Positions 41-18,331 of a stretch of DNA of 19,782 nt are shown piece after piece; the stretch's first letter is position 1, and every line of letters begins with the position of its first letter. A model generated the notes under the pieces. It was given only the letters and a program-made list of their open reading frames with translations, was not told the origin of the DNA and did no database searches. The DNA lies in assembly GCA_030597485.1 (NCBI GenBank), contig JAUVRU010000006.1, forward strand, positions 1 through 19,782, in the 5' to 3' direction. This stretch comes from Anaerolineae bacterium. GTDB lineage: Bacteria > Chloroflexota > Anaerolineae > 4572-78 > NAK82. The position numbers and the translations under genes are program-made.

Positions 41-1599
41 TGGGACTGGTCCCGCCAGCACTGCTGCTGGTGGGCTACAACTGGGCCCGCAGCGGCCATC
101 CCCTGCAGACCGGCTATGACCTGACCATCTTCTCGCCGGCGGTGTGGTGGGGTCTGTACAAGCTGCTGTTCAGCCCGCTGCGGGGGCTGTTTGTCTACTC
201 GCCACTGCTGCTGTTGAGCCTGCCGGGCCTGGTGTGGCTGTGGCGAAGGCACCGGCTGGAGGCGGCCCTGGTGGAGGCGGTCGCTGGTGTCACCGTGCTT
301 CTCTTCTCTGCCTGGACCTCGGGCGAAGGGCTGAGCTGGGGCTCGCGCTTCCTGATACCGGTGGTGCCATTGTTCTGCCTGCCGCTGGCCCCGGTCGTGG
401 AGCGGGCGATGGGGGGGTCCCTTGTCACCGGCGCGTTACTCATCGCGTTGGGGCTGCTATCGGCGGTCATCCAATTCCTGGGTGTGGCTATCAACCCCTG
501 GATCTATCTGGGGCAACTGCAAGCTGATCTTGGGGGCGAGTTTTTCTTGGAGAAGACGGCGGCCATCACGAGTTTCATCTACACGCAGCCCATCGGACAG
601 ATCCGACATTGGGCGCTGGCCAACTCCGACGTGGCCTGGTGGCAGTCGTGGGGTTTTGATGCTGTCGCCCTTGGCCTTTGCCTGTTCCTGATACTGGTCG
701 CCATCGTCAATCTCAGATGGCAAGGCCGGCGTTCCCCGTCAATTGTCAGTCTGATGATCCCTCTCGTCCTGGTTCTGCCCATCACGTATGTGCTGCTCAC
801 TCGCTATTACGACAGCGACCGTCAGTTTGGGCCACCGGACGATGCCTACACCGGTGCGCTTCACAGCGCCGTGGCCCAGGGGAGCCCAGGGGACGGGATG
901 GTGACGGTAGCCCCATACCATTATCACGTGGCCATGAACCGCTTCAAGGCACGGGTCCCAATCGTGGGCTTTGCCCGCCAGGTCCCTCCCCTTCCGGAGA
1001 CAGCACTGCCACTGCTGGCGGACACTGGGCGGGGTGAGAATGTGTGGATGGTGACCAGCGGCTTTCCGCCGGCTGCACCAGACAACGCGGTCGAGCGATG
1101 GCTGGCCCTCAACGCCTTCAAAGCCAGTGACTGGTGGCTTGACGACGTGCGTCTGGTGGGCTACGCCACCGGCAAGGGGCAATCTGTCACCACCCGAGTG
1201 GTAAACGCCAGGCTGGGCGACGAAGTGGTTCTGACCACGGCCAGCGTGTCCGAATCGGCTCAAGCCGGACAGTCCCTGGCCGTGGAGTTCTCCTGGCTGG
1301 CCCTCAAACGACCAATCGCCGACTACAACGTCTTCCTGCAACTGCTCACCAGCGGCGGTTTGCCAGCAGCCCAACACGACAGCCCCCCCAACGGCGGCTA
1401 CACGCCCACCTCCGCATGGTCCGCTGACCAGGAGGTGGCAGATCGCCATGGCCTGATCTTGCCCTCGGACTTGCCAGCTGGTGACTACCGGTTGATAACG
1501 GGTTTGGTCAACCCGGCTACCGGCCAGCGGCTGCTGGTGGGTCCCGGTCAGGATTTTGTGGGATTAGGCCCCATCGCGATAGAATCGGGCGATCAATGA
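1..1599 (+). CDS. GT-C glycosyltransferase-like membrane protein with one C-terminal beta module (5' end missing)
   Basis: The reading frame is open from the first base, so the N-terminal half, including any catalytic acidic motif, lies outside the window; 532 codons are visible. The membrane part shows several hydrophobic segments and the stretches YNWARSGHP, FSPLRGLFVYSPLLLL and SWGSRFLIPVVPL, a pattern I know from large bacterial GT39-like proteins. Visible residues from about 378 to the end form one beta-sandwich module of the type repeated throughout this window (LVGY, DYNVFLQLL, DLPAGDYRLITGLVNPATGQRL). The stop TGA overlaps the ATG of the next gene (ATGA), which suggests translational coupling. 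The first 40 or so bases are a heptamer-like repeat that is translated here. A membrane glycosyltransferase role is inferred from fold and context; donor and acceptor are unknown. Confidence 0.8.
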   Translation, partial: RSPAPLLPVLCFLLGLVPPALLLVGYNWARSGHPLQTGYDLTIFSPAVWWGLYKLLFSPLRGLFVYSPLLLLSLPGLVWLWRRHRLEAALVEAVAGVTVLLFSAWTSGEGLSWGSRFLIPVVPLFCLPLAPVVERAMGGSLVTGALLIALGLLSAVIQFLGVAINPWIYLGQLQADLGGEFFLEKTAAITSFIYTQPIGQIRHWALANSDVAWWQSWGFDAVALGLCLFLILVAIVNLRWQGRRSPSIVSLMIPLVLVLPITYVLLTRYYDSDRQFGPPDDAYTGALHSAVAQGSPGDGMVTVAPYHYHVAMNRFKARVPIVGFARQVPPLPETALPLLADTGRGENVWMVTSGFPPAAPDNAVERWLALNAFKASDWWLDDVRLVGYATGKGQSVTTRVVNARLGDEVVLTTASVSESAQAGQSLAVEFSWLALKRPIADYNVFLQLLTSGGLPAAQHDSPPNGGYTPTSAWSADQEVADRHGLILPSDLPAGDYRLITGLVNPATGQRLLVGPGQDFVGLGPIAIESGDQ

Positions 1600-4382
1600 G
1601 ATCTTCAAACAGGTCCCAGGCGCTGATCATATCCGGTCTGACACTGGTGGCCTTTCTGCTGCGAGCCTACCGGCTTGACGCCCAGAGCTACTGGATTGAC
1701 GAAGGCTGGACCATCTACTACGCTAATCTGTCCCCCGCCCAGCTGTGGCACGTGTTGCAGACCACCAAGATCGTGCCGCCGTTGTATCACTTCACCACCC
1801 TCTATTGGAGCCGGCTGGTGGGTGACAGCGAATACGTGTTCCGCTTCTGCTCGCTGGTCTTCGGGGTGATGAGCGTGCCGCTCACGTACCGCCTGGGCAA
1901 AGCGCTGGGCGACCGCCGCCTGGGCATAGTGGCAGCCACGCTGATGGTGGTAGCGCCTTATCAGGTCTGGCACAGCCAGGATGCGCGCAACTACACCATG
2001 CTCACGGCCGCATCCATCATGAGCATGTGGGGCTTCGTCAACATGTGGCAGCGGGGCGGCTGGAAATGGCGGTTGATGTACGTCATCGGCACCGAATGGG
2101 CGCTGATGACCCACTACCATGCGGTGGTGATCATTGGCATCCAGGGACTGTTCCTGCTGTTGACCTGGCGCCGCCATTGGCGCGACTACCTGACGTGGGG
2201 CGGCACGCTGCTGATCGTGCTCCTGATATTCGGGGCCTGGCTTGTCTTCGGCATGAGTCTGCTGAAAAGCTACCTGAACTGGATTCCCCAGCCCACGCTG
2301 TGGGCATCCTACGCTCGCAGCGTCATTGCCTACAGCGTGGGCGAGCTGGTGCCCCGTCCCCAGGCTATCCCGTTGGCGCTGGCCTTCGTGGCCGTCTATG
2401 TCCTGGGCCTGGTTTACGCCAGCCGCCGGACGTGGGGCATCTGGCGGGGACGCGAGATGGTCGGGTTTCTGCTCGCCTACACCCTGGCCCCCAACCTGGC
2501 CGCCTGGCTGTATGGCGAGATCCGTACGCCGGTATATCTGGAGCGATACCTGATTCCGGTACAGGTGGGCTACCTGTTGCCGATTGGCCTGGGGGTGCTG
2601 GCCGTGGCCGACGGTCTGCGCTCCAGCCTGATGCGGGATACGGCGCAGCGGCGGCTTCTGCCCACAGCAGCCGCCAGCGTCCCCCTCTTGCTCCTGGTGG
2701 GTATCAGCGGCTGGGTGCTCTGCCACCACTATGCGGACCCGGCCTACGCCAAACCTGACTGGCGGGCGGTGGCCCAGACCGTTGAGGACTTCGAACTGGA
2801 GGGGGATGCGGTAGTCATTACCGGCGACGGGGGCGCCAGGGTGCTGCGTTACTACTACGAAGGCAATCTGCCGATTTACACCGACTTCGACACGCCCGTT
2901 CCCCCCGACGACCAGGCTCGGCAGATCATCGGCAACATAGCGGCCGGGCATAATCGCATCTGGTACTCTCCCTATGGCGTTGACATCGACGCCACCCTGG
3001 AAAGCTGGCTGGCCGCCAACGCTCATCCGGCCTGGCAGAACTGGATTGGCCGCAAGCGGCTGGTCTTGTATGCCACCAACACCACCGCCGCAGCCCGGCC
3101 GCAGGCGGGCGATACCATCTTCCCGGAAGGCTGGCCCTGGGAGGCCGGTGCACAGGGCCCCGCACTGAGATTGATGGAGGTGACGGTGCCCAGCCAGCCC
3201 ACGGCGGCCGGTGACGTCCTGCCCATCACCCTTGTCTGGAAGGCAACCGGCAACCTGGAGGGGGACACCCAGCTGTCGCTGCGCCTGGTCAACAGCCGGG
3301 GAGACATGTTCGCCCAGGCCGACTGGCCGCCGCTGGCGGCGGCCGGGGGCACCTCTGCCTGGCAACCCGGCCAGCCGGTGACCGATCGACGCGGCCTGTG
3401 GCTGCCAGCCGACACCCCGCCGGGCGCCTATGGCCTGCAACTGGTGGCGTACCAGCCGGCAACAGGTCAATCGCTGGGCCAGCCGGTTGCCATCGCCCAT
3501 GTCGAGGTGGCCCCGGCCACAATCGTGGCGCCGTTGCCCGCCTTGTCCATTCCCAACTCGACACAGCAGCCGGTGGGCGACCTGACGCTGGTGGGCTACG
3601 CGCTGCCGGAAAGCTTGCAGCCGGGAGAGGAGATGTGGCTATGGCTATATTGGCAGGCCGGGCCAGGGGATGGCTCCAACCTGGCGACGGACAGCATTAT
3701 CCGATTGACACTGACCGGCGACAGTGAGTCCGCGACGGAGGAGTTGCTGCTGATTGATTCGGTAGGGCCGTTGGAGGGCTGGCTGCCGGGCCAGGTGCGC
3801 CGGGCGGTATATCACCTGCCCACCAGCCCCCGGCTGACGGGCAAACGAGCGACGGTGGAGGTGGCTCTCATCTCACCACCGTCTTCGGAGCGCTCCCAGG
3901 CCCAGGTGCAAGGCATGGCCACCCTGCCCTCCATCGGGCTACGGCAGCGCTCGCGCCAATTTGAGGAGCCGACCGTGAGCCAGCCCACCGAATTCCGCCT
4001 GGGCAGCCCGCCGGTGGTCAGCCTGATCGGCTATGACCTGCCAGTCGAACCCACGGCACCGGGCGATACACTTCCGGTCACGCTATACTGGCAGGCGGAG
4101 GCCGAGATGGAAACCGACTACACGGTGTTTGTCCAGGTCCTGAGCCGCGACTGGCAGGTGCTGGCTCAGTTAGATCGGCAACCGCTGGGGGGCAGAGCGC
4201 CCACCAGCACGTGGCTGGCTGGCGAAATCTTGACCGACCCCTACCACCTGAGTCTGCCAGCCGATCTGCCCCCCGGCGACTATCGCGTGATCACCGGCAT
4301 GTATGATCCCCATAGCGGGCAGCGGCTGCCCGTATCGAGTGGCGGAGATTTCGTTGAGCTGGGAGAGGTGACGGTGCGATGA
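1596..4382 (+). CDS. GT39/PMT_2-like membrane glycosyltransferase with three C-terminal beta modules
   Basis: Predicted GT-C enzyme of 928 residues that would transfer a sugar from a polyprenyl-phosphate donor at the outer face of the membrane. Residues 1-380 form a multi-helix domain. The expected catalytic Asp-Glu lies in the first outer loop (D35-E36 in WIDEGW), followed by PPLYHFTTLYWSRLVGDSEYV and HSQDARNY (126-133), both typical of the PMT_2/GT39 group. Residues about 380-500 are an outer linker domain starting with KPDWRAVAQ. Three beta-sandwich modules follow at about 520-640, 655-785 and 800-928; the last is the best match to the window consensus (LIGYDL, PGDTLPVTLYWQA, DYTVFVQVL, LPPGDYRVITGMYDPHSGQRLPV). 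The start is the ATG within the ATGA overlap with gene 1. The stop TGA lies at the first unit of the heptamer array that follows. The exact sugar and acceptor cannot be read from sequence. Confidence 0.88.
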   Translation: MRSSNRSQALIISGLTLVAFLLRAYRLDAQSYWIDEGWTIYYANLSPAQLWHVLQTTKIVPPLYHFTTLYWSRLVGDSEYVFRFCSLVFGVMSVPLTYRLGKALGDRRLGIVAATLMVVAPYQVWHSQDARNYTMLTAASIMSMWGFVNMWQRGGWKWRLMYVIGTEWALMTHYHAVVIIGIQGLFLLLTWRRHWRDYLTWGGTLLIVLLIFGAWLVFGMSLLKSYLNWIPQPTLWASYARSVIAYSVGELVPRPQAIPLALAFVAVYVLGLVYASRRTWGIWRGREMVGFLLAYTLAPNLAAWLYGEIRTPVYLERYLIPVQVGYLLPIGLGVLAVADGLRSSLMRDTAQRRLLPTAAASVPLLLLVGISGWVLCHHYADPAYAKPDWRAVAQTVEDFELEGDAVVITGDGGARVLRYYYEGNLPIYTDFDTPVPPDDQARQIIGNIAAGHNRIWYSPYGVDIDATLESWLAANAHPAWQNWIGRKRLVLYATNTTAAARPQAGDTIFPEGWPWEAGAQGPALRLMEVTVPSQPTAAGDVLPITLVWKATGNLEGDTQLSLRLVNSRGDMFAQADWPPLAAAGGTSAWQPGQPVTDRRGLWLPADTPPGAYGLQLVAYQPATGQSLGQPVAIAHVEVAPATIVAPLPALSIPNSTQQPVGDLTLVGYALPESLQPGEEMWLWLYWQAGPGDGSNLATDSIIRLTLTGDSESATEELLLIDSVGPLEGWLPGQVRRAVYHLPTSPRLTGKRATVEVALISPPSSERSQAQVQGMATLPSIGLRQRSRQFEEPTVSQPTEFRLGSPPVVSLIGYDLPVEPTAPGDTLPVTLYWQAEAEMETDYTVFVQVLSRDWQVLAQLDRQPLGGRAPTSTWLAGEILTDPYHLSLPADLPPGDYRVITGMYDPHSGQRLPVSSGGDFVELGEVTVR

Positions 4383-4499
4383 CAGATGACAGATGTCAAA
4401 TATCAAATGACAAATCACAAATGACAAATGGCAAAGACCAAATGACAAATAGCAAAGGCCAAATAACAAATGGCAAATGGCAGATCACAAATGGCGGAT
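4381..4499 (+). repeat. 17-unit heptamer tandem repeat, consensus RRCAAAT
   Basis: Seventeen consecutive 7-base units run in unbroken register from 4381 (GACAGAT, GACAGAT, GTCAAAT, ATCAAAT, GACAAAT, CACAAAT, GACAAAT and so on to GGCGGAT). The last four bases of each unit are mostly AAAT; the first two vary. The array begins on the last two bases of the gene 2 stop codon and ends within the first codons of gene 3, so it fills the whole spacer and contains both candidate in-frame ATG starts of gene 3. It resembles the short tandemly repeated repetitive (STRR) heptamers described in cyanobacteria. A second block of the same family lies at 5820-5861. Confidence 0.9.
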
Positions 4500-6980
4500 C
4501 AAGAGAATAAGAACCAGAATGTGAAACTTGATTGGGCTGTGGTTGGCCTGCTGGCCCTGCTGGTGGGCCTATTCTTCTGGCGCATTCTGACGCCGGACCT
4601 GACCGATCGGGCCAGCTTCCCGACCGGCGACTTTGCCCGCCAGTTCTGGGCCTTCGCCACCTTCGAGGCGCGCGAGCTGGCAGCCGGCCGGCTGCCCCTT
4701 TGGAATCCCTACACCTACGGCGGCGCGCCTTTCTGGGCAGACATCCAGAGCGCAGTCCTCTATCCACCCAGCCTGGTGACCCTCATCCTGTCCGGTGCCG
4801 GGGAGATCTCTCTGTTCGCGCTGGAGCTGGAGGCAATTGTCCATTTCTGGCTGGCCGGGATGTTCACCTATCTGCTGGTGCGGCGATTGACTGGGCACCG
4901 GGGAGGGGCTTTGCTGGCGGCCATCATCTTCACCTTTGGCGGCTACCTGACCAGTTACCCCAGCCAGCAGCTGGCCGTGCTGGAGACCGACGTGTGGTTG
5001 CCATTGATCCTCTATTGCGCCGACCGGGCACTGGTAGACAGGTCGGGAGAGAAAGCCAGGCTGCACCCAGCAGGGGGCGTGAATTGGGCCTACCTGTTGC
5101 TGGCCGGCCTGGCGTGGGGAATGGCTCTGCTGGCCGGTCATCCCCAGAGTGCTATGCTTGTGTTCTATGCTTTCACGGCGTATGTGGCATTCATATCGCT
5201 GGCGTATCGGAGGCGTGGAATCAACGAGTCAGCGAATGAGCGAGTCAGCGAGTCAGCGAGTCAGCGAGAGGGCGAATCACCGAGTCAGCGAGTCAGCGAA
5301 TCAACCAATGCGATTGCGAGCGCATCTACGGAGACAAGCCATCGCTCATTCGCTCATTCGCTCATTCGCTCATTCGCTTATTCGCTGACTCGCCCATTCG
5401 TCCATTGGCTGGTGATCGTGGGCATCGGGCTGGGGCTATCGGCGGTGGCCTGGCTGCCCGCTCTGGAGTATATGCGGCTGTCGGTGCGCGCGGCCGGCTT
5501 CTACGACGAAATGTCGGGAGGCTTCCCCCTGTATGACTCGATCCAGATGCTGCTGCCGGGCGCGGTCAGCCCGTACTCACCGCTGTACGTAGGCGTTCTG
5601 CCGCTGCTGCTGGCGATATGGGCGGCTCTGACGCTGCGCCGGCGGGAGACGATATTCTGGGGGGGCATGGCGGCCGTGGCTTTCCTCCTCTCATTTGGCG
5701 GTGAGAGCTTCCTCTACACACCTTTCTACCTGTTGGTGCCCGGCTTCTCCATCTTCCGCGGCCAGGAGCGAGCGGCGTTTCTGTTCAGCTTCGCCCTGGC
5801 GGTGCTGGCAGGATATGGGTTCAAATATCAAATGGCAAATGCCAAATGGCAAATGTCCAAACTGCGGCGGGTGGTGGGCTGGCTGTTGGTGGGATCGCTG
5901 GGAGCCGTGGTGCTGTTCTTCTACGGCCTGAACAGCACCGGATGGCAGGAGGACAGCCCGTTCCACTTCCTGCTGAGCCGCAGCGTGTGGCTGGCTCTCA
6001 TGCTGGCGATGGCTTGGGGACTGATACGGGCGAGCGAGGGCGGGCCTCGGGGGAACGGGCGGCTGAGGGGTCGGTTCTATGTGCCCCTGATAGGGCTGGG
6101 CACCATGCTGCTGGTCACGTTGGACCTGTTCACCATCAACTGGAAGACCAATGTGTACCCGGCACTGCCCGAAACCCAGACCGTGCCCCCCGCGGTCGTG
6201 CAGGCGATCTACGACGACGTGACTCAGGGCCAGGCCTTTCGCGTCTACAATGAGTATCGCGTCTACGAGAACTACGGCGTGCCTTTCAGCCTGGTGGATG
6301 CCTGGGGCGCCAGCCCCCTGCGCCTGGCCGGTTACGACGATCTGTACCGGTCGCTGCGAATGGAACGGGTATGGCAGCTGCTCAACGTCAAATACGTGAT
6401 AACCTGGCGAGAGGAACTGTACGCCCCGTCTCAGATTATCTATCAGGAGCCGACCGACCACGACGTGACCTACGTCCACCGGCTGGATGAAATTGCCCCC
6501 CGTGCCTGGTTGGTATACCATGCGGAGGAGATCGGCGATGACGATGCCCTGGCTCGTCTGGATGCCTTTGAGTTTGATCCGGCACGTGTTGCCCTGGTGC
6601 CCCCGGGCACGCGCCTCGTGCTCCAGCAGCCGCCCGGCGATCGCCCGGACGAGGGCTCTTTCCGAGAGGGAAGCGTAGCGGTGACAGGCCGCACGCCAGG
6701 CTCCGTGTCATTGAGCATTGATGCGCCGGCTGACGGTCTGCTGGTGCTGAGCGAGATCCACTACCCCGGCTGGCGGGCCATGGTGGATGGCAGCGCAGTA
6801 CCTGTCATACGAACGGATCACATCTTGCGTGGCATCCCCGTCCCGGCCGGGAAGCATCAGGTGCAGCTGGTTTTCCGACCGGTGACGTTCACCGTGGGCG
6901 CTGCCCTCAGTGGCATCACACTGGGAGCGCTGGCGGTGGCCGGGGTGTGGGTTTGGCTGCGGAAGCGGCCACGGACGTAG
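4470..6980 (+). CDS. YfhO-like membrane protein (GT-C related)
   Basis: Predicted polytopic protein of 836 residues resembling the YfhO family (PF09586), whose characterised Bacillus/Listeria members act in glycosylation of cell-surface polymers. Evidence: an N-terminal helix, then the loop TGDFARQFWAF (D54) with PLWNPYTYGGAPFWADIQSAVLYP, which is the family hallmark; many later helices; WQLLNVKYVI; a C-terminal outer domain with LSEIHYPGWRAMVDG and PAGKHQVQLVFRP (about 758-804), and a last helix ending in a basic tail. It is the only complete gene here without the beta module. Both in-frame ATGs (4470 and 4491) lie inside the heptamer array. I kept 4470 because AAAGG sits 11 bases upstream, but 4491 (829 residues) is equally possible. 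Residues about 251-312 and 451-464 are translated short-repeat DNA. Those blocks add a hydrophilic Ser/Glu/Arg loop and a short KYQMANAKWQM segment between helices. Confidence 0.85.
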   Translation: MANGRSQMADQENKNQNVKLDWAVVGLLALLVGLFFWRILTPDLTDRASFPTGDFARQFWAFATFEARELAAGRLPLWNPYTYGGAPFWADIQSAVLYPPSLVTLILSGAGEISLFALELEAIVHFWLAGMFTYLLVRRLTGHRGGALLAAIIFTFGGYLTSYPSQQLAVLETDVWLPLILYCADRALVDRSGEKARLHPAGGVNWAYLLLAGLAWGMALLAGHPQSAMLVFYAFTAYVAFISLAYRRRGINESANERVSESASQREGESPSQRVSESTNAIASASTETSHRSFAHSLIRSFAYSLTRPFVHWLVIVGIGLGLSAVAWLPALEYMRLSVRAAGFYDEMSGGFPLYDSIQMLLPGAVSPYSPLYVGVLPLLLAIWAALTLRRRETIFWGGMAAVAFLLSFGGESFLYTPFYLLVPGFSIFRGQERAAFLFSFALAVLAGYGFKYQMANAKWQMSKLRRVVGWLLVGSLGAVVLFFYGLNSTGWQEDSPFHFLLSRSVWLALMLAMAWGLIRASEGGPRGNGRLRGRFYVPLIGLGTMLLVTLDLFTINWKTNVYPALPETQTVPPAVVQAIYDDVTQGQAFRVYNEYRVYENYGVPFSLVDAWGASPLRLAGYDDLYRSLRMERVWQLLNVKYVITWREELYAPSQIIYQEPTDHDVTYVHRLDEIAPRAWLVYHAEEIGDDDALARLDAFEFDPARVALVPPGTRLVLQQPPGDRPDEGSFREGSVAVTGRTPGSVSLSIDAPADGLLVLSEIHYPGWRAMVDGSAVPVIRTDHILRGIPVPAGKHQVQLVFRPVTFTVGAALSGITLGALAVAGVWVWLRKRPRT
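5225..5400 (+). repeat. Octamer tandem repeat in two inverted blocks, inside gene 3
   Basis: Ten 8-base units in register from 5225 to 5304 (consensus CGAGTCAG / CGAATGAG) are followed after about 40 bases by seven units from 5345 to 5400 reading CTCATTCG, CTTATTCG, CTGACTCG, CCCATTCG, which is the reverse complement of the same unit. Bases 5225-5247 pair with 5370-5392 at 20 of 23 positions, so a long stem is possible. The block stays in frame in the YfhO-like gene. The left arm encodes Ser/Glu/Arg-rich sequence (ANERVSESASQREGES) and the right arm encodes the periodic SFAHSLIRSFAYSLTR. Confidence 0.88.
5820..5861 (+). repeat. Heptamer repeat (RRCAAAT family) inside gene 3
   Basis: Units TTCAAAT, ATCAAAT, GGCAAAT, GCCAAAT, GGCAAAT and the degenerate GTCCAAA run in register for 42 bases. 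Bases 5821-5840 match 4396-4415 in the upstream spacer array at 19 of 20 positions. Forty-two bases is a whole number of codons and yields FKYQMANAKWQMSK between two hydrophobic segments of the YfhO-like protein. Confidence 0.85.
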
Positions 6981-6985
6981 GGAGT

Positions 6986-7093
6986 GTCATTGATCTGTAC
7001 CTGTTGGATACCGGCGAACGGGTTACGGTCCTGCGGGAAGGCGTGCAGGCAAGCAACTTCGTTCACGTGGATGGCGTGGTGGCGGTGAGATGA
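6986..7093 (+). pseudogene. Possible remnant of a beta-module C-terminus
   Basis: The spacer between genes 3 and 4 contains an open stretch in a different frame from both neighbours' coding sequence, with no good start codon. It translates as VIDLYLLDTGERVTVLREGV and continues QASNFVHVDGVVAVR to a TGA at 7091-7093. This lines up with the end of the window's modules, for example VITGMYDPHSGQRLPV followed by FVELGEVTVR and a stop in gene 2. The TGA sits one base before the gene 4 ATG, the sort of tight junction seen after other module-bearing genes here. I read it as the tail of a deleted or replaced gene. The match is short and divergent, so chance is not excluded. Confidence 0.45.
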
Positions 7094-7094
7094 C

Positions 7095-9548: not shown

Positions 9549-9705
9549 GTAGCCTAGCCACCGGACACCTCGGTTGTATGGCTGCAGCAGGACGCAGATA
9601 AACGCAGATGCACGTCGATTGTTCTGGATTTTCTGTGTCAATACCTACGGGAATCAGCGAAAAGCTGGTCCCATCGAAGACTGTCAGGCAGCTGGATAGG
9701 TAGCG
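9549..9705 (+). repeat. 157-bp spacer with a degenerate dispersed repeat (ACGCAGATAA type)
   Basis: The only direct repeat seen is ACGCAGATAAACGCAGATGC from 9592, two near-copies of a 10-base ACGCAGAT unit. The bases after it (GATTTTCTGTGTCAAT, then GGGAATCAGCGAAAAGC) look like a worn copy of a dispersed element I associate with Chloroflexota and other environmental genomes, which typically pairs ACGCAGAT repeats with an ATCTGCG-rich arm. I see no convincing promoter, terminator hairpin or RNA gene. This is the longest spacer in the window, so a promoter for gene 5 is possible but unsupported. Confidence 0.4.
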
Positions 9706-11694
9706 ATGACTGTGAAGCTCAGGTCAGACAATCACCAGGCATTTCTCTACCCGACAACCATCCTTGCGCTCACGTTGCTGGCGTTTGGGCTGCGCCTGAT
9801 CACGCTGGACCGGTTCAGCATGCGCGGCGATGAGGCGTTCGACGTGCTCATTGCCAGCCAATCGCTGGCGGCCATCATCGATCAGCTGCGGACCGTGCAT
9901 CCGTACCCACCTCTGTTCTACATGGGGTTTCACCACTGGCTGAAAATGGCGGGCAGCAACGAGCTGGCAGCACGCTTCACCGCCGCTGGCTTCGCCACGT
10001 TGATCGTGCCCGCAGTTTACGCCTTGGGGACACAACTGTTTGGTCGTCGCGTGGGCCTGATAGCTGCGCTGCTGGCCGTGGTGAATCCCTTCATCCAGTG
10101 GTGGGGTCAGGATACTCACTTCTTCGCCTGCATCTTGGCGCTGATCACCCTTCTTTACGCGGCGGCCCTGCGCTTCTGGAAATCGGAGCGTCCCACGGGA
10201 AGAGCTGGAGGACAACCCCCAGGCAGGCTGGGGCAGGCAACCGCTCTGTACATCGTGGTGGCGTTGCTTTGCTTCTTCACCTATTACTTCTCCCTCTTCG
10301 CCTGGGGCGCGCTCAACTTGGTGGCAGTCGTGTATACATTGCGGGGCCGGTGGTCGCGCTGGCTGATCTATCATTGGTGGGGAGCGCAGCTCCTGGTAAT
10401 CCTCCTCTACCTGCCGTGGCTGTTGTATTCCCTGCCGTTCACCGCCACCTTCGTGCAGCCATGGGTCAACCCGGCCCGGCCGGCGGCCATACTGTGGCGC
10501 ACGCTGACTGCCTTCAGCCTGGGGTACACGGAGCATTTCTTCGCCTGGGCTCGAGGCGCTATCCCCTGGTTGGCCGGGTTCTCTGGGGTGATATTCGTGC
10601 TGGGGATCGGATTGAGCTGGAAGCGACCTGCTCTGCGATCAGCCATGGCTGTCACGCTGACGCTGATCTTCGCGCCGCTGGCTGTCATCTATCTTGCTTC
10701 CTTCAACCGGCCGCTGTACGACGAGAAATACGTCATCATCCTGCTGCCCCTCTACCTGGTTGTCCTGGCCGTGGGCATACGAGAGTTGACACGCCGCTGG
10801 CGATCGGCAGGCCAACTGGTGGTCGTGGCGGTTGTCGTGCTTATGTCGTTCGCCACCTTTCAGTATCAGTTCAACGAGAATGCTGCCAAGAGCCCCGACT
10901 GGCGGGAGGCGCTGGCGTACGTTCACCACCAGGCCCGACCAGGCGACTTGATCATTCGCAATTTCCCCGAGCCGTCGGTGCTCTATTACAATGACGGGGC
11001 GTTGCCGATCAAGCTGATCCCATCCACCGCCCGCCCCAGCCCCGCCCAGACCGCAGCCGAGATGGAACGCGCGGTGGCTGATTATGACCGGGTCTGGCTG
11101 GTTCCCTTGATCAGGCCGTGGTGGGATCCAGACGGGAGTGCGCCGGCCTGGCTCGACCGGCACGCGGACCGGGCGCACCAGACCTTTTTCCGGGGAGTGC
11201 ACGTGGCCTTGTGTCTCACCCCATCGAGCTGGCTTGCGGCCATGACCCCGCAGCCGGTCACGGTGGCGGAAGGCATTCAGCTGCTGGGTTTCCGGATGGC
11301 GGACGAGGCGGAGGGCCAGCGGTCGGCTCTGTCACCAGGAGACACGCTGCATCTCAGCCTTTACTGGCAGGCCGACGGCCCCACCGACACCGCCTACACC
11401 GTTTTCACCCACCTGGTGGGACCGGACGGGCAGGTGTACGGCCAGTGGGACAACCCGCCGGTGCGAGGCACCTACCCCACCACTGAGTGGCAGCCCGGCG
11501 ACAGGATAGTGGACCAATACGAGATCCCCATCGACGCTGCCGCCCCAGCCGGCACTTATCAATTGCTGGTCGGTTTGTACGACCCGGTTTCCGGCGCCCG
11601 ACTGCCGGTGCTGGCCGGGCATACTACCGGCGACACCGAAGGGACACAAGCGAGGGACCACATCGTGCTGGACCAGGAAATCGCTGTCCAATGA
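9706..11694 (+). CDS. GT39/PMT_2-like membrane glycosyltransferase with one C-terminal beta module
   Basis: Predicted GT-C enzyme of 662 residues, the most compact and canonical in the window. The first helix is at about 14-31. The catalytic acidic pair is D42-E43 in SMRGDEAFDVL, followed by HPYPPLFYMGFHHWLKMAGSNELAARF (65-91) and WWGQDTHFF (132-140), the usual PMT_2 succession. Helices continue to about residue 395; the outer region opens with SPDWREALAYVHHQARPGD, as in gene 2. One beta module fills about 513-662: LLGFRM, SPGDTLHLSLYWQAD, AYTVFTHLVGPDG, YPTTEWQPGDRIVDQY, GTYQLLVGLYDPVSGARLPV. The stop overlaps the next start (ATGA), suggesting coupled translation with the DUF2142-like gene. 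The donor is probably a polyprenyl-phosphate sugar, by family; the acceptor is unknown. Confidence 0.88.
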   Translation: MTVKLRSDNHQAFLYPTTILALTLLAFGLRLITLDRFSMRGDEAFDVLIASQSLAAIIDQLRTVHPYPPLFYMGFHHWLKMAGSNELAARFTAAGFATLIVPAVYALGTQLFGRRVGLIAALLAVVNPFIQWWGQDTHFFACILALITLLYAAALRFWKSERPTGRAGGQPPGRLGQATALYIVVALLCFFTYYFSLFAWGALNLVAVVYTLRGRWSRWLIYHWWGAQLLVILLYLPWLLYSLPFTATFVQPWVNPARPAAILWRTLTAFSLGYTEHFFAWARGAIPWLAGFSGVIFVLGIGLSWKRPALRSAMAVTLTLIFAPLAVIYLASFNRPLYDEKYVIILLPLYLVVLAVGIRELTRRWRSAGQLVVVAVVVLMSFATFQYQFNENAAKSPDWREALAYVHHQARPGDLIIRNFPEPSVLYYNDGALPIKLIPSTARPSPAQTAAEMERAVADYDRVWLVPLIRPWWDPDGSAPAWLDRHADRAHQTFFRGVHVALCLTPSSWLAAMTPQPVTVAEGIQLLGFRMADEAEGQRSALSPGDTLHLSLYWQADGPTDTAYTVFTHLVGPDGQVYGQWDNPPVRGTYPTTEWQPGDRIVDQYEIPIDAAAPAGTYQLLVGLYDPVSGARLPVLAGHTTGDTEGTQARDHIVLDQEIAVQ

Positions 11695-14600
11695 CGGCCG
11701 ACACGAACAGGCGCCAGATTGTTCAGCCGGAAGGCGAGCAGTCCTGGTCGACGCGTGCCCGCAGAAGAGCGACAGGTCACTGGCAGCTCATCATCGTTCT
11801 GGTTCTGTTTGTGTGCCTGGCATCCGGGTACAGCCTGATGCTCCCGCTGGGGGAAGCGGCCGACGAAACCGATCACTTTGCGTTGGTGCGTTTCATTGCC
11901 GAGTGTGGACGGCCGCCCCTCACCATTGAAGAGCGTCACGCCATAGGCCCCAAGGGAGATGCCTCCCCCATTTATCACGGCCTGGTGGCCCTGCTCACCC
12001 AGCACGTGGATGTCTCCGCCTTGCCGGCCTTGCCCGACACCCAGGCGCGCCCGGAGCGTTTCATCCCCACCGATGGGTTCCGCGCCAATCGGATCTTTCA
12101 CACGGAGGATGAGGCATTCCCCTTCCGTGGCATCGTGCTGGCCTGGCATCTGGCGCGGCTGGCATCCATTCCCCTGGGGGCAGCCACAGTGGTGGCCGCC
12201 TATATCACCGCGTTGGCGATATATCCCCACCGGCGTTACTTCGCGCTGGCGGTTGCCAGTTTCGTGGCCTTTCTGCCCCGCTTTGTGATTGGCAGCGCTG
12301 TGGTCAATGACGACAATCTGGTGGTGCCACTGGTGGCTTTTTCGGTATATTGCCTGGTTCGGGTAGCCCAGGGTGACCGGAGCCGCCGTACCTTCATCGT
12401 TCTGGGCGCGCTGATGGGCGGGGCGGCCATCACCAAATACCACAGCCTTCTTCTGGTACTCGAATTGATCGTCGTGTTGGCCGTCCTGGCCTGGCGCAAC
12501 CACAGGAAAGCGGGCACCGCAGCTGGCGACGGGCCATCTCTGCTGGGCCGCCTGGGCTGGAGTCTGCTTGCCTTCGGGCTGGTGGCCGGGTGGTGGTTTG
12601 CGTTCTTGATGATCCAGTTCAACCAGGTGGCGGAGCTGGGATGGATAGGGGGCCTGATGGCCCCCCTGGGGGACCCGGTGGTCACCAGCGGCTTTGGGCG
12701 GGTACTCGACCTCCAGCCAGGTGGCACGCCCAGTTATGAATTCGGATGGGGTGACTGGGCGGACCTCTTGTTCCGCTCCTTCTGGGTCTCCTATGCCTGG
12801 CTGCACCTGTTTGCCACGCCAACAGTCTACTGGATTCTGGGGTTCTTCTGCGTGGTGGTCCTGCTGGGGCTGCTGAGGCCCGTCTGGTGCCGCGTGTTTC
12901 CCGGAAGGAAACCCTCCGGGCCGGCACCGGCGTCTGGCTGGCGGCTTGACGTGGCGGTGCTGGCCCTGCACCTTTTCGTCTACCTGACCGTCATCGTCAT
13001 GCGCTATTTGCTCAGACCCGCCCGCGAGACGGGCCAGGGACGACACCTCTATCCGGCGCTGACGTCGGTGGCCTTCTTCTTCACTCTGGGATTGGCCAAC
13101 AGCTGGGAGATGATCCGCTGGTCTCTGGGCAAACGGCCAGGCGATCGCTGTCACGCTGAGGGCACCGGCCGCCTCAAGGGAGAGGCCGGGCTGGCGTTGG
13201 GCATCGGCGGCGCCTTGTTTGCCCTGAGCCTGTTGGCCCTGCCGGTGTTCATCCTGCCGGAGTATCATCCCTACCTGTCCATCGTTACCGCCCGGCCGGC
13301 CGACGTGACCATACCCCACCGCCTGTCAGTCAGCTTCGCTGACGGGCTGGAGCTGGCCGGTTACCGTGTGGACAAGCCGGAGGTGAGGGCCGGTGACCCG
13401 GTCTCAGTCACCCTGTATTGGTATGCGGATGCCAGACAGGAAAGGGACTATCTGGTCGAGGTGTGCCTGCGTGATGACCGCGACCAGATGGTGACCTGCC
13501 GTCGGGGACATCCCATTGACGGTCGCTACCCGATGCGGGCCTGGGAGGTTGGCTACCTGATCCGTGACCAGGTGGATGTGCCCACTCCCGACTGTGTGCC
13601 GACGGGCGACTATGAGCTGGTCCTGTCCCTGCTGCCCCTGCGCCTGGACACGGCCAACACCGCCGTTGACTGGCAGAGCGCCCAGAGGCTGGTGGCGGAA
13701 GGCCATAATCCGGTGTCGCTGGGGAAGGTGACCCTGTTGGCCGCACCCGGGGCTGTCGCCGGCGGCACCCGGTCCCCCGGCGACGAATTCAGCCTGTGGG
13801 CAGGGGATGAGCTCCACGACGGTGAGGGAATCGGGTTGGACCAGATGCGACAGCAGCTGACGGTGATCACATACCAGCCCGCCAGGAGCGACAGCGCGGA
13901 GGAGGCATCAGACATCGGGGGCGGGGATGCCAGCCCGGTGCGCCTGGTGCCAGCCGGCGGGCACACCCAGGCCATCCCCGACTGGCTTCCAGTGGCCCAC
14001 TTCACGGAAGAAACGTCCCACCTCAGTTATGACTGCCCGGCGGGGTATAGAGCCACCACATACAACTTCGTCCTGGACCCGGCAGTGAGGCCGGGACGGT
14101 ATCACCTGGCGATAGGTGACGAGGTTCAAGATGATTGGCCCATCGACGTCGCCACCCGATTTCGGGCTTTCCGCCCGCCATCCGACATACCCTATCGGTT
14201 GGATGCTTCCTTCATGGCCCAGGCAGGCGAAAGCCCGCCTCGGTTGCAGCTGCTGGGGTATGACATGGATCGGTCGCCCCGGCGGCCGGGAGATGTCGTG
14301 CCCATCACTGCCTACTGGCAGTCGCACCAGACAATGCGCCAGCATTACGTGGTATCCTTCTACCTGCTGGACCCCCTGATGCAGCCGTGGGGACAGGTGG
14401 ATTGGACCCTGGGAGGGCATTACCCCAGCGTGTTGTGGGCGCCCGGAGAGAGCGTGGATGAGGCGTACCCGCTCCCTATCGGCAACCGGACCCCGCCCGG
14501 CCTGTACACGATCGAGATGAGCCTGTACGAATACGTGGCGCCACCCAGGGGCGAAACCGGCGACGGAGCCAGCACCTCCCCGTTGCGCTTCCTGCTGGTC

Positions 14601-15122
14601 ACCACGCCGGTCAGCCCGGAGCCAGCCGAGCACCTCTACCTGGAACGGGTGCGGGTGATGGACCCCGCCGAAACCACATCACCTTCTCATCCAACGGCGT
14701 TTGAACTGGGCGACCAGATCCGATTGTTGGGTTACGACGTGCCAGCCGACTCGATGGGGCAGGGTGAAACGCTGGACCTGGTCCTTCACTGGCAGGCAAC
14801 CAGCCCCCCGGCGAGGGACTATACCGGCTTCACCCAGCTCATCGGGCCAGATGGACTGGTGTGGGGACAGAAGGACAACCAGCCCCAGGCGGGACGTTTC
14901 CCACCGACAAATTGGGACTTGACAACCAAGGTGGTCGATCGCTACCACATCCCCTTGCAGGAGGGGGCTCCTGTCGGTCAGTATCGGCTGCTGGTGGGGA
15001 TGTATGAGCTGACGACGGGAGAGCGGCTGCCGGTTGTGGGCGAAGCCGGGAATCGCCTGCCTGACGATGCTATCCCCTTGATCACGATCACCGTTGAGGA
15101 AGGCGGGGGCAGTGGTCAGTAG
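11691..15122 (+). CDS. DUF2142-like membrane glycosyltransferase with four outer module positions
   Basis: Predicted protein of 1143 residues. The frame is open upstream to 11487, but I chose the ATG at 11691 because it gives an ATGA overlap with gene 5, has AGGA 12 bases upstream, and begins directly with a short basic tail and the first helix (about 32-48); the upstream extension is only an Arg-rich out-of-frame reading of the gene 5 module. Membrane-half marks are LGEAADETDHFALVRFIAE (acidic pair D58-E59), IFHTEDEAFPFRGIVLAWHLARLAS (135-159), GSAVVNDDNL (201-210) and GQGRHLYPAL (448-457), resembling the DUF2142 (PF09913) group. Outer modules lie at about 547-683, 695-830 (divergent, without the YWQA core), 835-985 and 1000-1138. 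The last ends in RLPDDAIPLITITVEE, then a Gly-rich GGGSGQ tail whose TAG stop is formed by the heptamer repeat. It is a paralogue of the next gene. Confidence 0.86.
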   Translation: MTADTNRRQIVQPEGEQSWSTRARRRATGHWQLIIVLVLFVCLASGYSLMLPLGEAADETDHFALVRFIAECGRPPLTIEERHAIGPKGDASPIYHGLVALLTQHVDVSALPALPDTQARPERFIPTDGFRANRIFHTEDEAFPFRGIVLAWHLARLASIPLGAATVVAAYITALAIYPHRRYFALAVASFVAFLPRFVIGSAVVNDDNLVVPLVAFSVYCLVRVAQGDRSRRTFIVLGALMGGAAITKYHSLLLVLELIVVLAVLAWRNHRKAGTAAGDGPSLLGRLGWSLLAFGLVAGWWFAFLMIQFNQVAELGWIGGLMAPLGDPVVTSGFGRVLDLQPGGTPSYEFGWGDWADLLFRSFWVSYAWLHLFATPTVYWILGFFCVVVLLGLLRPVWCRVFPGRKPSGPAPASGWRLDVAVLALHLFVYLTVIVMRYLLRPARETGQGRHLYPALTSVAFFFTLGLANSWEMIRWSLGKRPGDRCHAEGTGRLKGEAGLALGIGGALFALSLLALPVFILPEYHPYLSIVTARPADVTIPHRLSVSFADGLELAGYRVDKPEVRAGDPVSVTLYWYADARQERDYLVEVCLRDDRDQMVTCRRGHPIDGRYPMRAWEVGYLIRDQVDVPTPDCVPTGDYELVLSLLPLRLDTANTAVDWQSAQRLVAEGHNPVSLGKVTLLAAPGAVAGGTRSPGDEFSLWAGDELHDGEGIGLDQMRQQLTVITYQPARSDSAEEASDIGGGDASPVRLVPAGGHTQAIPDWLPVAHFTEETSHLSYDCPAGYRATTYNFVLDPAVRPGRYHLAIGDEVQDDWPIDVATRFRAFRPPSDIPYRLDASFMAQAGESPPRLQLLGYDMDRSPRRPGDVVPITAYWQSHQTMRQHYVVSFYLLDPLMQPWGQVDWTLGGHYPSVLWAPGESVDEAYPLPIGNRTPPGLYTIEMSLYEYVAPPRGETGDGASTSPLRFLLVTTPVSPEPAEHLYLERVRVMDPAETTSPSHPTAFELGDQIRLLGYDVPADSMGQGETLDLVLHWQATSPPARDYTGFTQLIGPDGLVWGQKDNQPQAGRFPPTNWDLTTKVVDRYHIPLQEGAPVGQYRLLVGMYELTTGERLPVVGEAGNRLPDDAIPLITITVEEGGGSGQ

Positions 15123-15207
15123 ACAGTCGTCAGTAGACAGTAGACAGTCGTCAGTAGACAGTAGACAGTAGACAGCAAGGAGCAAAGAGCAGGGAGTAGG
15201 GGACAGG
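15117..15207 (+). repeat. 13-unit heptamer tandem repeat, CAGTAGA grading into GAGCAGG
   Basis: Thirteen 7-base units run in unbroken register: CAGTAGA, CAGTCGT, CAGTAGA, CAGTAGA, CAGTCGT, three CAGTAGA, then CAGCAAG, GAGCAAA, GAGCAGG, GAGTAGG, GGACAGG. The first unit supplies the last codon (CAG) and stop (TAG) of gene 6, and the array fills nearly the whole spacer up to ten bases before the gene 7 ATG. The first eight units are almost uniform, suggesting recent expansion; the last five are diverged and resemble the reverse complement of the repeat at the window start. Confidence 0.92.
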
Positions 15208-15217
15208 CTCGGGGCAC

Positions 15218-18200
15218 ATGGAAAGACACAGGACAGCGTCCAATCGGGGTTACCTGACGTTGCTGATGGTGATGGTCATCTTCCTGGCCGTCACCATCAG
15301 CTATGGTCTGCTGAACCCGTTGGGCGAGGCGCCGGATGAGATTGCCCACATGGACTTGATCCGGTACATCGGCCAGGAAGGCCACCTGCCACGCACATAC
15401 GACGAGCGCTACGCGGCCGGGTACAAGTCGGACTCGCCCATGTTGTATCACGCCCTGATCGGCGCGGCCACGGCGTGGGTGGACTACGACGCCCTTCCCC
15501 GGCTGAAGGTCAACAGCGCCACTCCCCGCCGTTTGCTCATTGAGGACGGCCTGTCACCCTTTGCCGTCATCCATACCGATGACGAGGCATTTCCCTTTCA
15601 AGGTATCGTGCTGGCATGGCACCTGGCGCGCCTGGCCTCCACCTTGTTCAGCGCCGGAACGCTGGTCGTCATCTACCTGATTGTGTTGACCATCCGGCCC
15701 GACGATCGGTGGCTGGCGCTGGGGGTGACGGCCGTGGTGGCAGCCCTCCTCCAATTCCAATTCATCGCCTCGGCCGTCAACGACGACAATCTCTTGGGTC
15801 TGTTGTCTGCGCTTTTCACTTTATGGCTGCTGCGAACCTGGCAGCGACCTGGCAACTGCTGGAACTATGCCTGGCTGGGTCTCTGGATGGGGTTGGCGGT
15901 GACGACCAAATACAGCGTGGTGCTGCTGCCACTGCTGGTCGGTGTGGTGCTGGTCCTGGCCGTCCGCCGCGGGTTGCTCGACTGGCAGGCTGCGGTGGGG
16001 CGGTTCTTCCTCTTTGGGGCAGCCATGGTTGTGAGCGCCGGATGGTGGTTCGTCTACGTTGTATGGCACTTAAACCAGGTGGAGACGCTGGGCCCGGTGG
16101 CCGGGCTGGTCAAGCCCTTCCTGGCCGGCGGTCCAGCCGACGCCAGCATGCGACAGGTGGCAGCACTCGTCACCGGCGGAGCCATCCCGGCCGGGAACAT
16201 CCTCAAGCCGGGCGGCGCCACCTGGTGGGATTGGGGGGTCAGCCTGTTCCAGTCTTTCTGGATGGCCCCCGGCCAGATGGGTCCGGTCGCCAGCAGTGCC
16301 TTTTCCATCGGTTTCCTCATCCTGTCGCTGGTGGCCGCCGGCGGTCTTGTGCGTGCCTGGCAGCGCCGGCCCGATTCCCCCCACCAGACCGGTGTCGGAT
16401 GGGCCCTCATCAGCCTGCTGGCACTTGTGATCCTGTTGCTCCTCCCCTTGCCCATCCTTCGCTTCTACCTCACTGGCAATCCAGCCGAATCGGGGCAGGG
16501 ACGACACATCCTGTTTCCGGCCGCCGCCGCCGTGGGACTGCTGCTGACCGTGGGAGTGTCCTCCTGGTTTGCGCCAGCCCGGCGGCGGTGGGTAGGGCTG
16601 AGCCTGGCGGCGGTGCTGCTGGGGTTCAGCCTCACCAACTTCTTCGGCTTCGTGCTGCCCGCCTTTCCCCAGCGGCTGCCGGTGCGCACCTCGGCCGATG
16701 CCGCCCAGGGCGTGCCCGATCCAGTGTACCTGGCCTTTGGATCCTCAATGGAACTGGTGGGTTTTCAGGTGGGGGAAACAAACCAGCACGGCGTGCTGCC
16801 GGTCACTTTGGTGTGGCGCAGCCTGGAGTACGCCGACCAGGATTATCTGGTTGGCTTGTCAGCGGTGGACGGGGCAGGCAGGGTGCGGGCCCAATGGATC
16901 GGACACCCGGTTGACGGTCGTTATCCCACCCGTGCCTGGGACCCGGGCGACGTGGTCTGGGATACGATCTGGCTGCCGCTGGCAGGCGTTGAACCGGGCG
17001 ACTACGAGTTGCGCCTGCGCCTTAATCCAGCCCCCGCACCGGAGGGCACGTTCTCCGATGCGGAAGATGCGGTGTTACTGACCCAGGTCACCCTTCCCTC
17101 TCACACCGCCCGTTCTCCGGCATACATCCTGAATCTGCCCGACGGCTCATCTGCCGGTTTCGACGTGTGGCAGGGCGGTGAACCGATGACCGGGATGCCC
17201 AGCTACCGCTACCGGGCCACCATCCCGGTGACGCTGGCCGAAACCGGCGGCGACCAGACCGCCGAGACGGAGGTGTCGCTGGTTGGTCCCGACGGCGCAG
17301 AGCAGTTGCCCACGACCCGGGCTGGCACGATATCCATCTTCCTGGTGGGCGCTCGCTGGCCGGGCGGGGAATACCGGCTGCGCCTGCGCAGGGGGGACAC
17401 GGTGGTGGACAGCCAGCCTGTGCTCCGGGCTGCAGTGCGCCAGCGCGACTTCGCCGTGCCGCCGATGGCGACCGAGGTGAGGGCCAGCTTTGGCGACGAG
17501 GTGATGCTGCTGGGGTTTGACTTTCCCCAGCGAAAGACACAGCCAGGCAGCACCCTGCCCATTACCCTGTACTGGCAGGCGCAGGGGGCCGGGCAGCGGC
17601 ACTACGTTGTCTTCAACCATCTGCTGGACAGCGACCTGCGCCAGTGGGGCGGGCGCGACCGGGTGCCCAGGGACTATTACAGCACCGCGCTGTGGGCACC
17701 GGGAGAGGTGGTACGTGATGCGTATCCGGTGCCGGTGGATTCGGGTGCGCCCCCAGGCATCTACCGCCTGGACGTGGGTCTCTACACGGAGGTGGCCGGC
17801 CAGGCCCATCCCGTGCCCCTGGTAGCAGACGGAGTGGTGCTGGATGCCAACAGCGTCACCATCGCCTCCATCAAGGTGGGCGGGCCGCCAGCCGGCGTGA
17901 CGGTAACGAACCCGGCGCCGGGGTATCCTCGGGACGACAATCTGGGCGGCTTGATCACGCTGCTGGGCTATGACCTGGACCTGGGACCGGAAGCGCTGAA
18001 CCTGACCCTGTACTGGCGCTGCGACGCGCCCCCCCCGACCGATTACACCACCTTCGTGCACGTGCGCGCCGCCGAACCGGCGGCCATCGTGGCCCAGAGG
18101 GACCGGCCGCCGGCCGGTGGTGCCTACCCCAGCTCACTGTGGGACGTGGGCGAGGTCATTCGCGATCCTATCCGGGTGCCCATCCCCCAGCCGGTGCCAG

Positions 18201-18331
18201 CGGGCGAGTACCAGGTGGTCGTGGGGCTGTACGACCTTGCCAGCGGCATGAGGTTGCCGGTAGCGGATCCGGCAAACGGAAGTCGGTTTCCAGACGACGC
18301 TATCCCCCTGACGACCATCGCCTTGGAATGA
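15218..18331 (+). CDS. DUF2142-like membrane glycosyltransferase with four outer module positions, paralogue of gene 6
   Basis: Predicted protein of 1037 residues with the same plan as its upstream neighbour. Membrane half: first helix about 12-31, LGEAPDEIAHMDLIRYIGQEG (D40-E41), VIHTDDEAFPFQGIVLAWHLARLAS (117-141), ASAVNDDNL (184-192) and GQGRHILFP (426-434). Long blocks such as DEAFPF-GIVLAWHLARLAS are nearly identical to gene 6, so the two arose by duplication. Outer modules lie at about 505-627, 633-745 (divergent, as in gene 6), 755-887 and 905-1037; the last ends in RFPDDAIPLTTIALE, an ending shared only with gene 6. The ATG at 15218 is the first plausible start after the heptamer array. 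I see no clear Shine-Dalgarno sequence at normal spacing; the repeat's GGGAG is 20 or more bases away. The function is inferred as lipid-linked sugar transfer onto a surface glycan. Confidence 0.86.
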   Translation: MERHRTASNRGYLTLLMVMVIFLAVTISYGLLNPLGEAPDEIAHMDLIRYIGQEGHLPRTYDERYAAGYKSDSPMLYHALIGAATAWVDYDALPRLKVNSATPRRLLIEDGLSPFAVIHTDDEAFPFQGIVLAWHLARLASTLFSAGTLVVIYLIVLTIRPDDRWLALGVTAVVAALLQFQFIASAVNDDNLLGLLSALFTLWLLRTWQRPGNCWNYAWLGLWMGLAVTTKYSVVLLPLLVGVVLVLAVRRGLLDWQAAVGRFFLFGAAMVVSAGWWFVYVVWHLNQVETLGPVAGLVKPFLAGGPADASMRQVAALVTGGAIPAGNILKPGGATWWDWGVSLFQSFWMAPGQMGPVASSAFSIGFLILSLVAAGGLVRAWQRRPDSPHQTGVGWALISLLALVILLLLPLPILRFYLTGNPAESGQGRHILFPAAAAVGLLLTVGVSSWFAPARRRWVGLSLAAVLLGFSLTNFFGFVLPAFPQRLPVRTSADAAQGVPDPVYLAFGSSMELVGFQVGETNQHGVLPVTLVWRSLEYADQDYLVGLSAVDGAGRVRAQWIGHPVDGRYPTRAWDPGDVVWDTIWLPLAGVEPGDYELRLRLNPAPAPEGTFSDAEDAVLLTQVTLPSHTARSPAYILNLPDGSSAGFDVWQGGEPMTGMPSYRYRATIPVTLAETGGDQTAETEVSLVGPDGAEQLPTTRAGTISIFLVGARWPGGEYRLRLRRGDTVVDSQPVLRAAVRQRDFAVPPMATEVRASFGDEVMLLGFDFPQRKTQPGSTLPITLYWQAQGAGQRHYVVFNHLLDSDLRQWGGRDRVPRDYYSTALWAPGEVVRDAYPVPVDSGAPPGIYRLDVGLYTEVAGQAHPVPLVADGVVLDANSVTIASIKVGGPPAGVTVTNPAPGYPRDDNLGGLITLLGYDLDLGPEALNLTLYWRCDAPPPTDYTTFVHVRAAEPAAIVAQRDRPPAGGAYPSSLWDVGEVIRDPIRVPIPQPVPAGEYQVVVGLYDLASGMRLPVADPANGSRFPDDAIPLTTIALE

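Follow-up and report, generated by a model that had tools for sequence, protein, structure and literature searches.

A predicted beta-sandwich module at the distal end of GT-C enzymes and PASTA receptors in Chloroflexota, with a conserved face on its terminal copy

The analyses presented here concern a protein module that recurs in a 19,782-nucleotide stretch of DNA (the window) from an Anaerolineae bacterium (contig JAUVRU010000006.1), where it closes six of the eight open reading frames (ORFs). The module is a predicted extracytoplasmic, immunoglobulin (Ig)-like beta sandwich, probably a distant relative of Wzt_C and of the C-terminal domain of DUF4832, that has spread through the Chloroflexota. 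Its usual hosts are GT-C enzymes, in which it follows the membrane block at the C-terminus or close to it; a new finding is that PASTA receptors, kinases for the most part, also have it as their distal ectodomain. Its family, its place after the membrane block, its predicted fold, a split between terminal and inner copies and a face specific to the terminal ones were all obtained by computation. Fold, face and hosts suggest that the module may bind a ligand and that this may be a glycan. We give a probability of about one half to the reading in which the terminal copy is a binding head for an envelope ligand, probably a glycan, and the inner copies form a stalk.

The initial annotation had proposed 15 module positions in the window, two of them divergent, plus a likely remnant. 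Each position was scored with a hidden Markov model (HMM) built from the other 14 segments, using 400 shuffled window proteins as control. Thirteen positions matched with 35 to 144 bits (E 5.9e-9 to 1.2e-42), compared to 5.4 to 10.1 bits for the best of the 400 shuffles, and the HMM boundaries fell within about 10 residues of those first proposed, except that 1132-1596 became about 1204-1587. The divergent positions 13773-14180 (no leave-one-out match) and 17114-17452 (6.5 bits, within the shuffle range) were mutually dissimilar by BLASTP (E 0.35) and matched only profiles built with those segments included; more than half of 17114-17452 also fell under a predicted local distance difference test score (pLDDT) of 50 in the AlphaFold2 model of g7. 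Both stay unproven as modules, and the remnant was not located. The other structural claims held: g1, g2, g4, g5, g6 and g7 do end in the module, leave-one-out profiles and predicted structure agree on one recurring beta-sandwich fold, and the absence of a named family was upheld, since all Pfam and NCBIfam matches within the module lay below cut-off. Specifically, Pfam and NCBIfam searches of the eight window proteins and a Pfam search of the 15 modules gave nothing over cut-off for the module, and the eight Pfam families listed for the 15 modules include no carbohydrate-binding module (CBM), the library being Pfam only and not a CBM-specific one. In a sequence search of the PDB the best match was a laccase (E 0.0034), followed by a transglutaminase Ig domain and RbmA, matches too weak to be used alone. 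Judged by title and the start of the abstract, none of the open-access papers listed describes this module.

A scan of one genome per species of bacteria and archaea with two short peptide patterns, by which carriers outside the phylum may be missed, gave 82 matches and from them 44 relative loci, all with Chloroflexota names. In a phylum survey that scored at most 13 candidates per genome, the module was present in 131 of 301 Chloroflexota genomes (the source genome included) and in 79 of the 216 good ones; searches of viral contigs, plasmids and phages for the module returned no match. The source genome itself holds 59 module places, 15 on the window contig and 44 on 25 others, a count that includes the two unproven window positions, which match by construction. 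About 30 module ORFs were seen in it, pieces included.

The C-termini of GT-C enzymes lie outside the cytoplasm, and these enzymes use lipid-linked (polyprenyl-linked) sugars outside the membrane. The 44 named loci comprise 73 ORFs with 124 modules (37 single, 21 double and 15 triple), and a hydrophobic segment after the last module was found in none of the 73. Another set of 20 stretches, taken from 16 Chloroflexota genomes, contained 21 module ORFs, of which 20 had at least five hydrophobic segments before the module; in two of these ORFs, tails of 175 and 182 residues follow it. We opened 20 of the 25 other module contigs of the source genome, some partly, which yielded 26 module ORFs. In the full-length alignment, 13 homologues had been trimmed before their modules. 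The N-terminal halves of the window proteins cluster as g2/g5, g4/g8 and g6/g7, with g1 separate, so that the modules occur on several GT-C lineages.

The exception among module ORFs of the source genome was a Ser/Thr kinase (L092:2394-4226:-, G000:C509) that has two PASTA repeats and ends in the module, which makes up its last 130 residues. When its PASTA-plus-module piece was used as query, at least 48 of 199 genomes of the class gave a match spanning both parts (a hand count of the listed rows covering query positions 1-5 to 254 or more). All of the 20 top loci that were opened (L180-L199) encoded PASTA repeats and a C-terminal module, and 13 of them a Ser/Thr kinase domain. Among the seven loci lacking the kinase, L190, L191, L192 and L199 are 5'-cut fragments; L194, L195 and L196, from one genus, combine PASTA and module in proteins of 578-771 residues that have no Pfam kinase match and may be decayed kinases or a different receptor. 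The receptor modules form one clade (Shimodaira-Hasegawa-like approximate likelihood ratio test, 99). In PASTA kinases the part after the transmembrane helix, the C-terminus, faces outside; because this holds for the C-termini of both PASTA kinases and GT-C enzymes, the module is extracytoplasmic. Its proposed association with GT-C enzymes is supported, the module being found mainly on them, but since PASTA receptors carry it too it is not an accessory of GT-C enzymes only.

Terminal and inner copies were found to differ. A profile of the terminal window modules ranked the terminal copy best in all 11 multi-module proteins of the source genome (5.0 expected) and, among the 13 named proteins outside the seed set, in 11 (5.8 expected); an inner-module profile ranked it best in 9 of the 11 source-genome proteins (p 0.002). 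When the pattern-seeded proteins were left out, the module tree comprised 110 modules, 67 of which belong to multi-module proteins, and the last/inner label required 10 changes on it, against 22.3 for free shuffles (minimum 17) and 21.6 for within-protein shuffles (minimum 15). The tree with seeded proteins, which also held the two unproven positions that the unseeded repeat left out, gave 8 changes against 39 and 37.9; since the gap is smaller on the unseeded tree, seeding had sharpened the contrast. Branch support on the module tree was poor. Residue losses were then compared between 75 terminal copies (single copies included) and 40 inner copies, after exclusion of the seeded ORFs of the 44 named loci, of 3'-open ORFs, of the kinase L092 and of three ORFs, out of 78, whose tail exceeded 60 residues. 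In the numbering of m4, the terminal module of g2, the core was equal in terminal and inner copies (W34 0.93/0.89, W75 0.97/0.92, L12 0.93/0.95), and inner copies dropped by 0.3 to 0.5 at T45, F47, Y105, D62, R112, G103 and H49. With sheets and faces assigned from the DSSP string and the usual strand order of Ig and fibronectin type III (FnIII) domains, the C/C'/F sheet had a mean loss of 0.235 on its outward face, compared to -0.026 on the A/B/E sheet (p 6e-4) and 0.038 in the core (p 1.5e-3), p-values that are rough, the sequences being related.

The predicted fold, a beta sandwich, matched the carbohydrate-binding domain of Wzt in the fold test. According to PMC9445017, the sugar lies on strands 3, 4, 6 and 7 of Wzt; Asn313 and His350 bond to it through their side chains, and a methyl pocket is formed by Leu300, Thr346, Ala348 and Trp362. 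Their equivalents in m4 are 62 (Asn313), 105 (His350), 49 (Leu300), 101 (Thr346), 103 (Ala348) and 115 (Trp362). Of the 123 positions, the nine with the greatest loss include four of these six (p 2e-4; 49, 62, 103 and 105 rank 9, 4, 6 and 3), in a test that used six contact positions where an earlier conservation test had used five, 115 having been added after alignment to Trp362. Positions 62 and 105 are conserved though their residues differ from those of Wzt.

Altogether, we propose that GT-C glycosyltransferases and PASTA receptors, the latter mostly Ser/Thr kinases, carry the module at their distal end, and that the C-C'-F face of the terminal copy (F47, H49, Q60, D62, G103, Y105 and R112 in m4 numbering; H49 of the consensus face is Q in m4 itself) would bind an envelope ligand. 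The ligand would most likely be a glycan or glycan-bearing polymer that the GT-C enzymes use as acceptor or release as product. Inner copies, in which the sandwich core is kept and the face often lost, would act as a stalk that sets the distance from head to active site. The initial suggestion that the modules hold a glycan outside the membrane would fit the Wzt-like predicted fold and the conserved face. Its corollary that copy number tunes reach fits inner copies with core kept and face lost, and the same data make processivity through equivalent binding copies less likely.

Several results weigh against a glycan-binding head on a stalk. In structure comparison the Wzt match was tied within 1 Z with Ig-like domains of glycoside hydrolase family 2 and with RbmA, and the top Foldseek matches of the module were NPC2/ML lipid-binding proteins. 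The Wzt_C profile (PF14524, cut-off 30.4 bits) listed none of the 15 modules and gave 16.9 bits for L077 and 19.7 for L114. At the Wzt contacts, positions 101 and 115 showed no marked loss (ranks 92 and 35), and Asn313, His350 and Trp362 of the Aquifex aeolicus protein correspond to D62, Y105 and a non-aromatic V115. The contact equivalents were not significantly conserved without the terminal/inner contrast (five against the other outward positions, p 0.11). The nine largest losses also include 107 and 117, outside the face strands, with the core residue V46 tenth, and the relatedness of the sequences limits the p-values as said above. The inner-module profile favoured the terminal copy in only 8 of the 13 named proteins outside the seed set, where 5.8 were expected (p 0.24, not significant), and single-copy modules fell in neither class (19 changes as terminal and 17 as inner on the unseeded tree, 16 and 20 on the seeded one). 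Finally, gene neighbours revealed no clear pathway among the families found: 99 of 233 non-module ORFs, chosen by us from loci L032-L073, gave 217 families, and the 25 most frequent included PTPS_related (5), YfhO (3), PMT_2 (3) and GT2 (2), the rest being mixed.

A serious, if rather unlikely, rival is that the same conserved face is a protein-protein contact, through which terminal modules dock on each other, on the body of the GT-C enzyme or on a PASTA receptor, bringing envelope glycosyltransferases together in complexes with no sugar bound. Most of the Foldseek rows shown for full-length g7 are multi-Ig (complement) proteins, the RbmA FnIII domain is among the nearest folds, and receptor and GT-C modules have the face in common, as expected of a common partner or a homotypic contact. 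What speaks for a glycan instead is that the face coincides with the sugar-binding sheet of Wzt and that the hosts make or sense envelope polymers, two points with which protein contact is nevertheless compatible. It is quite improbable that all copies are inert spacers, with the terminal one conserved only as a chain cap: inner copies do retain the core and vary elsewhere, but terminal conservation is concentrated on one face, and a cap alone would not predict that PASTA receptor modules retain this face. Binding of a lipid or of a lipid-linked donor such as a polyprenyl-phosphate sugar, in the manner of ML/NPC2 proteins, is the least probable, for although NPC2 (E 6e-6, top), Der p 2 and GM2-activator were among the first 50 Foldseek matches and GT-C donors are polyprenyl-linked, the query template modelling (TM)-scores of those matches were only 0.44 to 0.60, the ML family matches lay far below cut-off (E 0.32 and 0.054) and the losses were mainly on the outer sheet face and not in the core.

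If the terminal copy is a glycan-binding head, one recognition head would serve both sides of envelope glycan metabolism in the Chloroflexota, on many GT-C 'writers' and on a PASTA 'reader' that is usually a kinase. Since these face residues are retained in the receptor head, the receptor may sense the same polymer that the GT-C enzymes bind and extend, with feedback from envelope glycan to protein phosphorylation; we regard this extension as doubtful, and its odds are lowered by the 3 of 16 uncut receptors that show no kinase domain. We know of no characterised GT-C enzyme in this group. A shared outer head that is a small, soluble, confidently predicted domain would provide a handle on GT-C targets. 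Its occurrence in PASTA kinases links glycosyltransfer with signalling at the envelope and points to the first candidate residues for mutation. Where membrane enzymes bear repeat arrays, a conserved terminal head with worn inner copies constitutes a design rule that can be tested.

The window consists of eight ORFs on the same strand. The module closes g1 (1-1599), g2 (1596-4382), g4 (7095-9548), g5 (9706-11694), g6 (to 15122) and g7 (15218-18331); g3 (4470-6980, YfhO) has none at its end and g8 (from 18372) is truncated by the window end. The ORFs g1 and g2 overlap, as do g5 and g6 if g6 begins at the inferred ATG at 11691. The features are as follows, with leave-one-out E-values for the modules.

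1204..1587, +, module m1 (single, terminal) of g1, an ORF truncated by the window start; E 5.3e-25
1596..3140, +, GT-C membrane part of g2 (PMT_2); PF13231 E 6.5e-13
3147..3518, +, module m2 (inner, 1 of 3) of g2; E 2e-25
3564..3947, +, module m3 (inner, 2 of 3) of g2, the weakest confirmed; E 5.9e-9
3990..4379, +, module m4 (terminal) of g2; E 1.2e-42, predicted structure pLDDT 98.1
4470..6980, +, g3, YfhO-type GT-C without module; PF09586 E 1.9e-20
7095..8700, +, GT-C membrane part of g4; PF13231 28.0 bits, cut-off 26.1
8703..9116, +, module m5 (inner) of g4; E 1.6e-28
9156..9545, +, module m6 (terminal) of g4; E 1.2e-29
9706..11250, +, GT-C membrane part of g5; homologous to the N-terminal half of g2 (E 6.5e-31), PF13231 marginal at 26.1 bits
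11254..11691, +, module m7 (single, terminal) of g5; E 6.9e-38
11691..13322, +, GT-C membrane part of g6, probably starting at an inferred ATG at 11691 that overlaps the g5 stop; PF13231 E 2.3e-10
13326..13742, +, module m8 (inner, 1 of 4) of g6; E 1.4e-25
13773..14180, +, m9, second position of g6, unproven as a module; no leave-one-out match
14214..14624, +, module m10 (inner, 3 of 4) of g6; E 4.6e-25
14697..15101, +, module m11 (terminal) of g6; E 1.1e-33
15218..16720, +, GT-C membrane part of g7, paralogue of g6 (g6-g7 E 1e-70); Foldseek Pmt4 and ArnT, probability 1.00
16727..17101, +, module m12 (inner, 1 of 4) of g7; E 1.3e-22
17114..17452, +, m13, second position of g7, unproven as a module; 6.5 bits, shuffle level, more than half under pLDDT 50
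17480..17881, +, module m14 (inner, 3 of 4) of g7; E 3.8e-33
17933..18328, +, module m15 (terminal) of g7; E 5e-32
18372..19781, +, g8, GT-C truncated by the window end, whose relatives bear modules (sequence comparison)

In the Pfam scan of the window proteins, PMT_2 (PF13231) exceeded its cut-off of 26.1 bits in g2, g4 and g6 and fell below it in g7 (22.4) and g8 (21.6); g1, truncated at its 5' end, had no PMT_2 match and g3 matched YfhO instead. The scan of the genome gave marginal scores for g5 (26.1), g7 (27.2) and g8 (26.4). By Foldseek the membrane half of g7 matched Pmt4 (target TM 0.56) and ArnT, ranked below several complement proteins that matched the Ig arrays. Close homologues of g2, g3 and g4 were found at a locus of CSMAG_674 (Anaerolineae). 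By eye, the last residues of g8 resemble the start of a 464-residue two-module ORF on another contig of the same genome (C60, L077), so that g8 probably carries modules too.

The source genome (2.94 Mb, 71.65% complete) gave 36 PMT_2 matches, 31 of them over cut-off, a very large GT-C repertoire. The nine genomes of the class without a match in the PASTA-plus-module search all belong to one family (f2), whose listed genomes were also without the module in the phylum survey, like those of f5 and f12; loss or an early branch may explain its absence from f2. Three module genes carried a single in-frame TAG (L036:6150-6152, L076:6428-6430 and G166:C1:429283-429627), which may reflect sequencing error, decay or readthrough.

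Among known systems, the strongest profile match was the C-terminal domain of DUF4832 (hhalign 96.7% over 119 columns, 5 rows), and the Pfam family itself (PF16116, cut-off 29.2 bits) matched 3 of the 15 modules below cut-off (best E 0.0095; m1 12.2 bits). This domain follows an N-terminal region different from that of the hosts of the module, one that is glycosidase-like. The module profile matched the DUF4832 protein L125 (E 9e-6), and loci L123-L127 look like distant relatives. Wzt_C differs in following the ABC ATPase of the cytosolic side of the Wzm/Wzt transporter, whereas the module lies outside the membrane, on multi-transmembrane GT-C-like ORFs or PASTA receptors; unlike Wzt_C it occurs in arrays, and its contact residues differ. 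The module, the DUF4832 C-terminal domain and Wzt_C may form an undescribed clan. No fn3 (PF00041) match was found among the modules, and hhalign gave 1.4% with 22 rows. The YfhO-like GT-C 'component 27' of PMC10584680 has its YfhO Pfam match in common with g3; the available text of that paper has no mention of the module and no word starting with 'chloroflex'. EmbC, according to PMC3044687, is a GT-C enzyme whose outer beta-sandwich CBM helps to bind the acceptor, as proposed here for the module, and shows that GT-C enzymes can use such a domain for this purpose; the mycobacterial CBM is, however, a large jelly roll with a calcium site and a second subdomain, unlike the module, and EmbC was not among the matches listed in the PDB sequence and fold searches. 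ArnT and Pmt4 resemble g7 in the membrane half (Foldseek). Their outer domains, and those of PglB/AglB/STT3, have other folds. No open-access paper describing a module after PASTA repeats was found by listed title or abstract. PASTA kinases of the PknB/StkP type have the kinase, the single transmembrane helix and the PASTA repeats in common with the receptors described here, which differ from them by the module placed after the last PASTA repeat.
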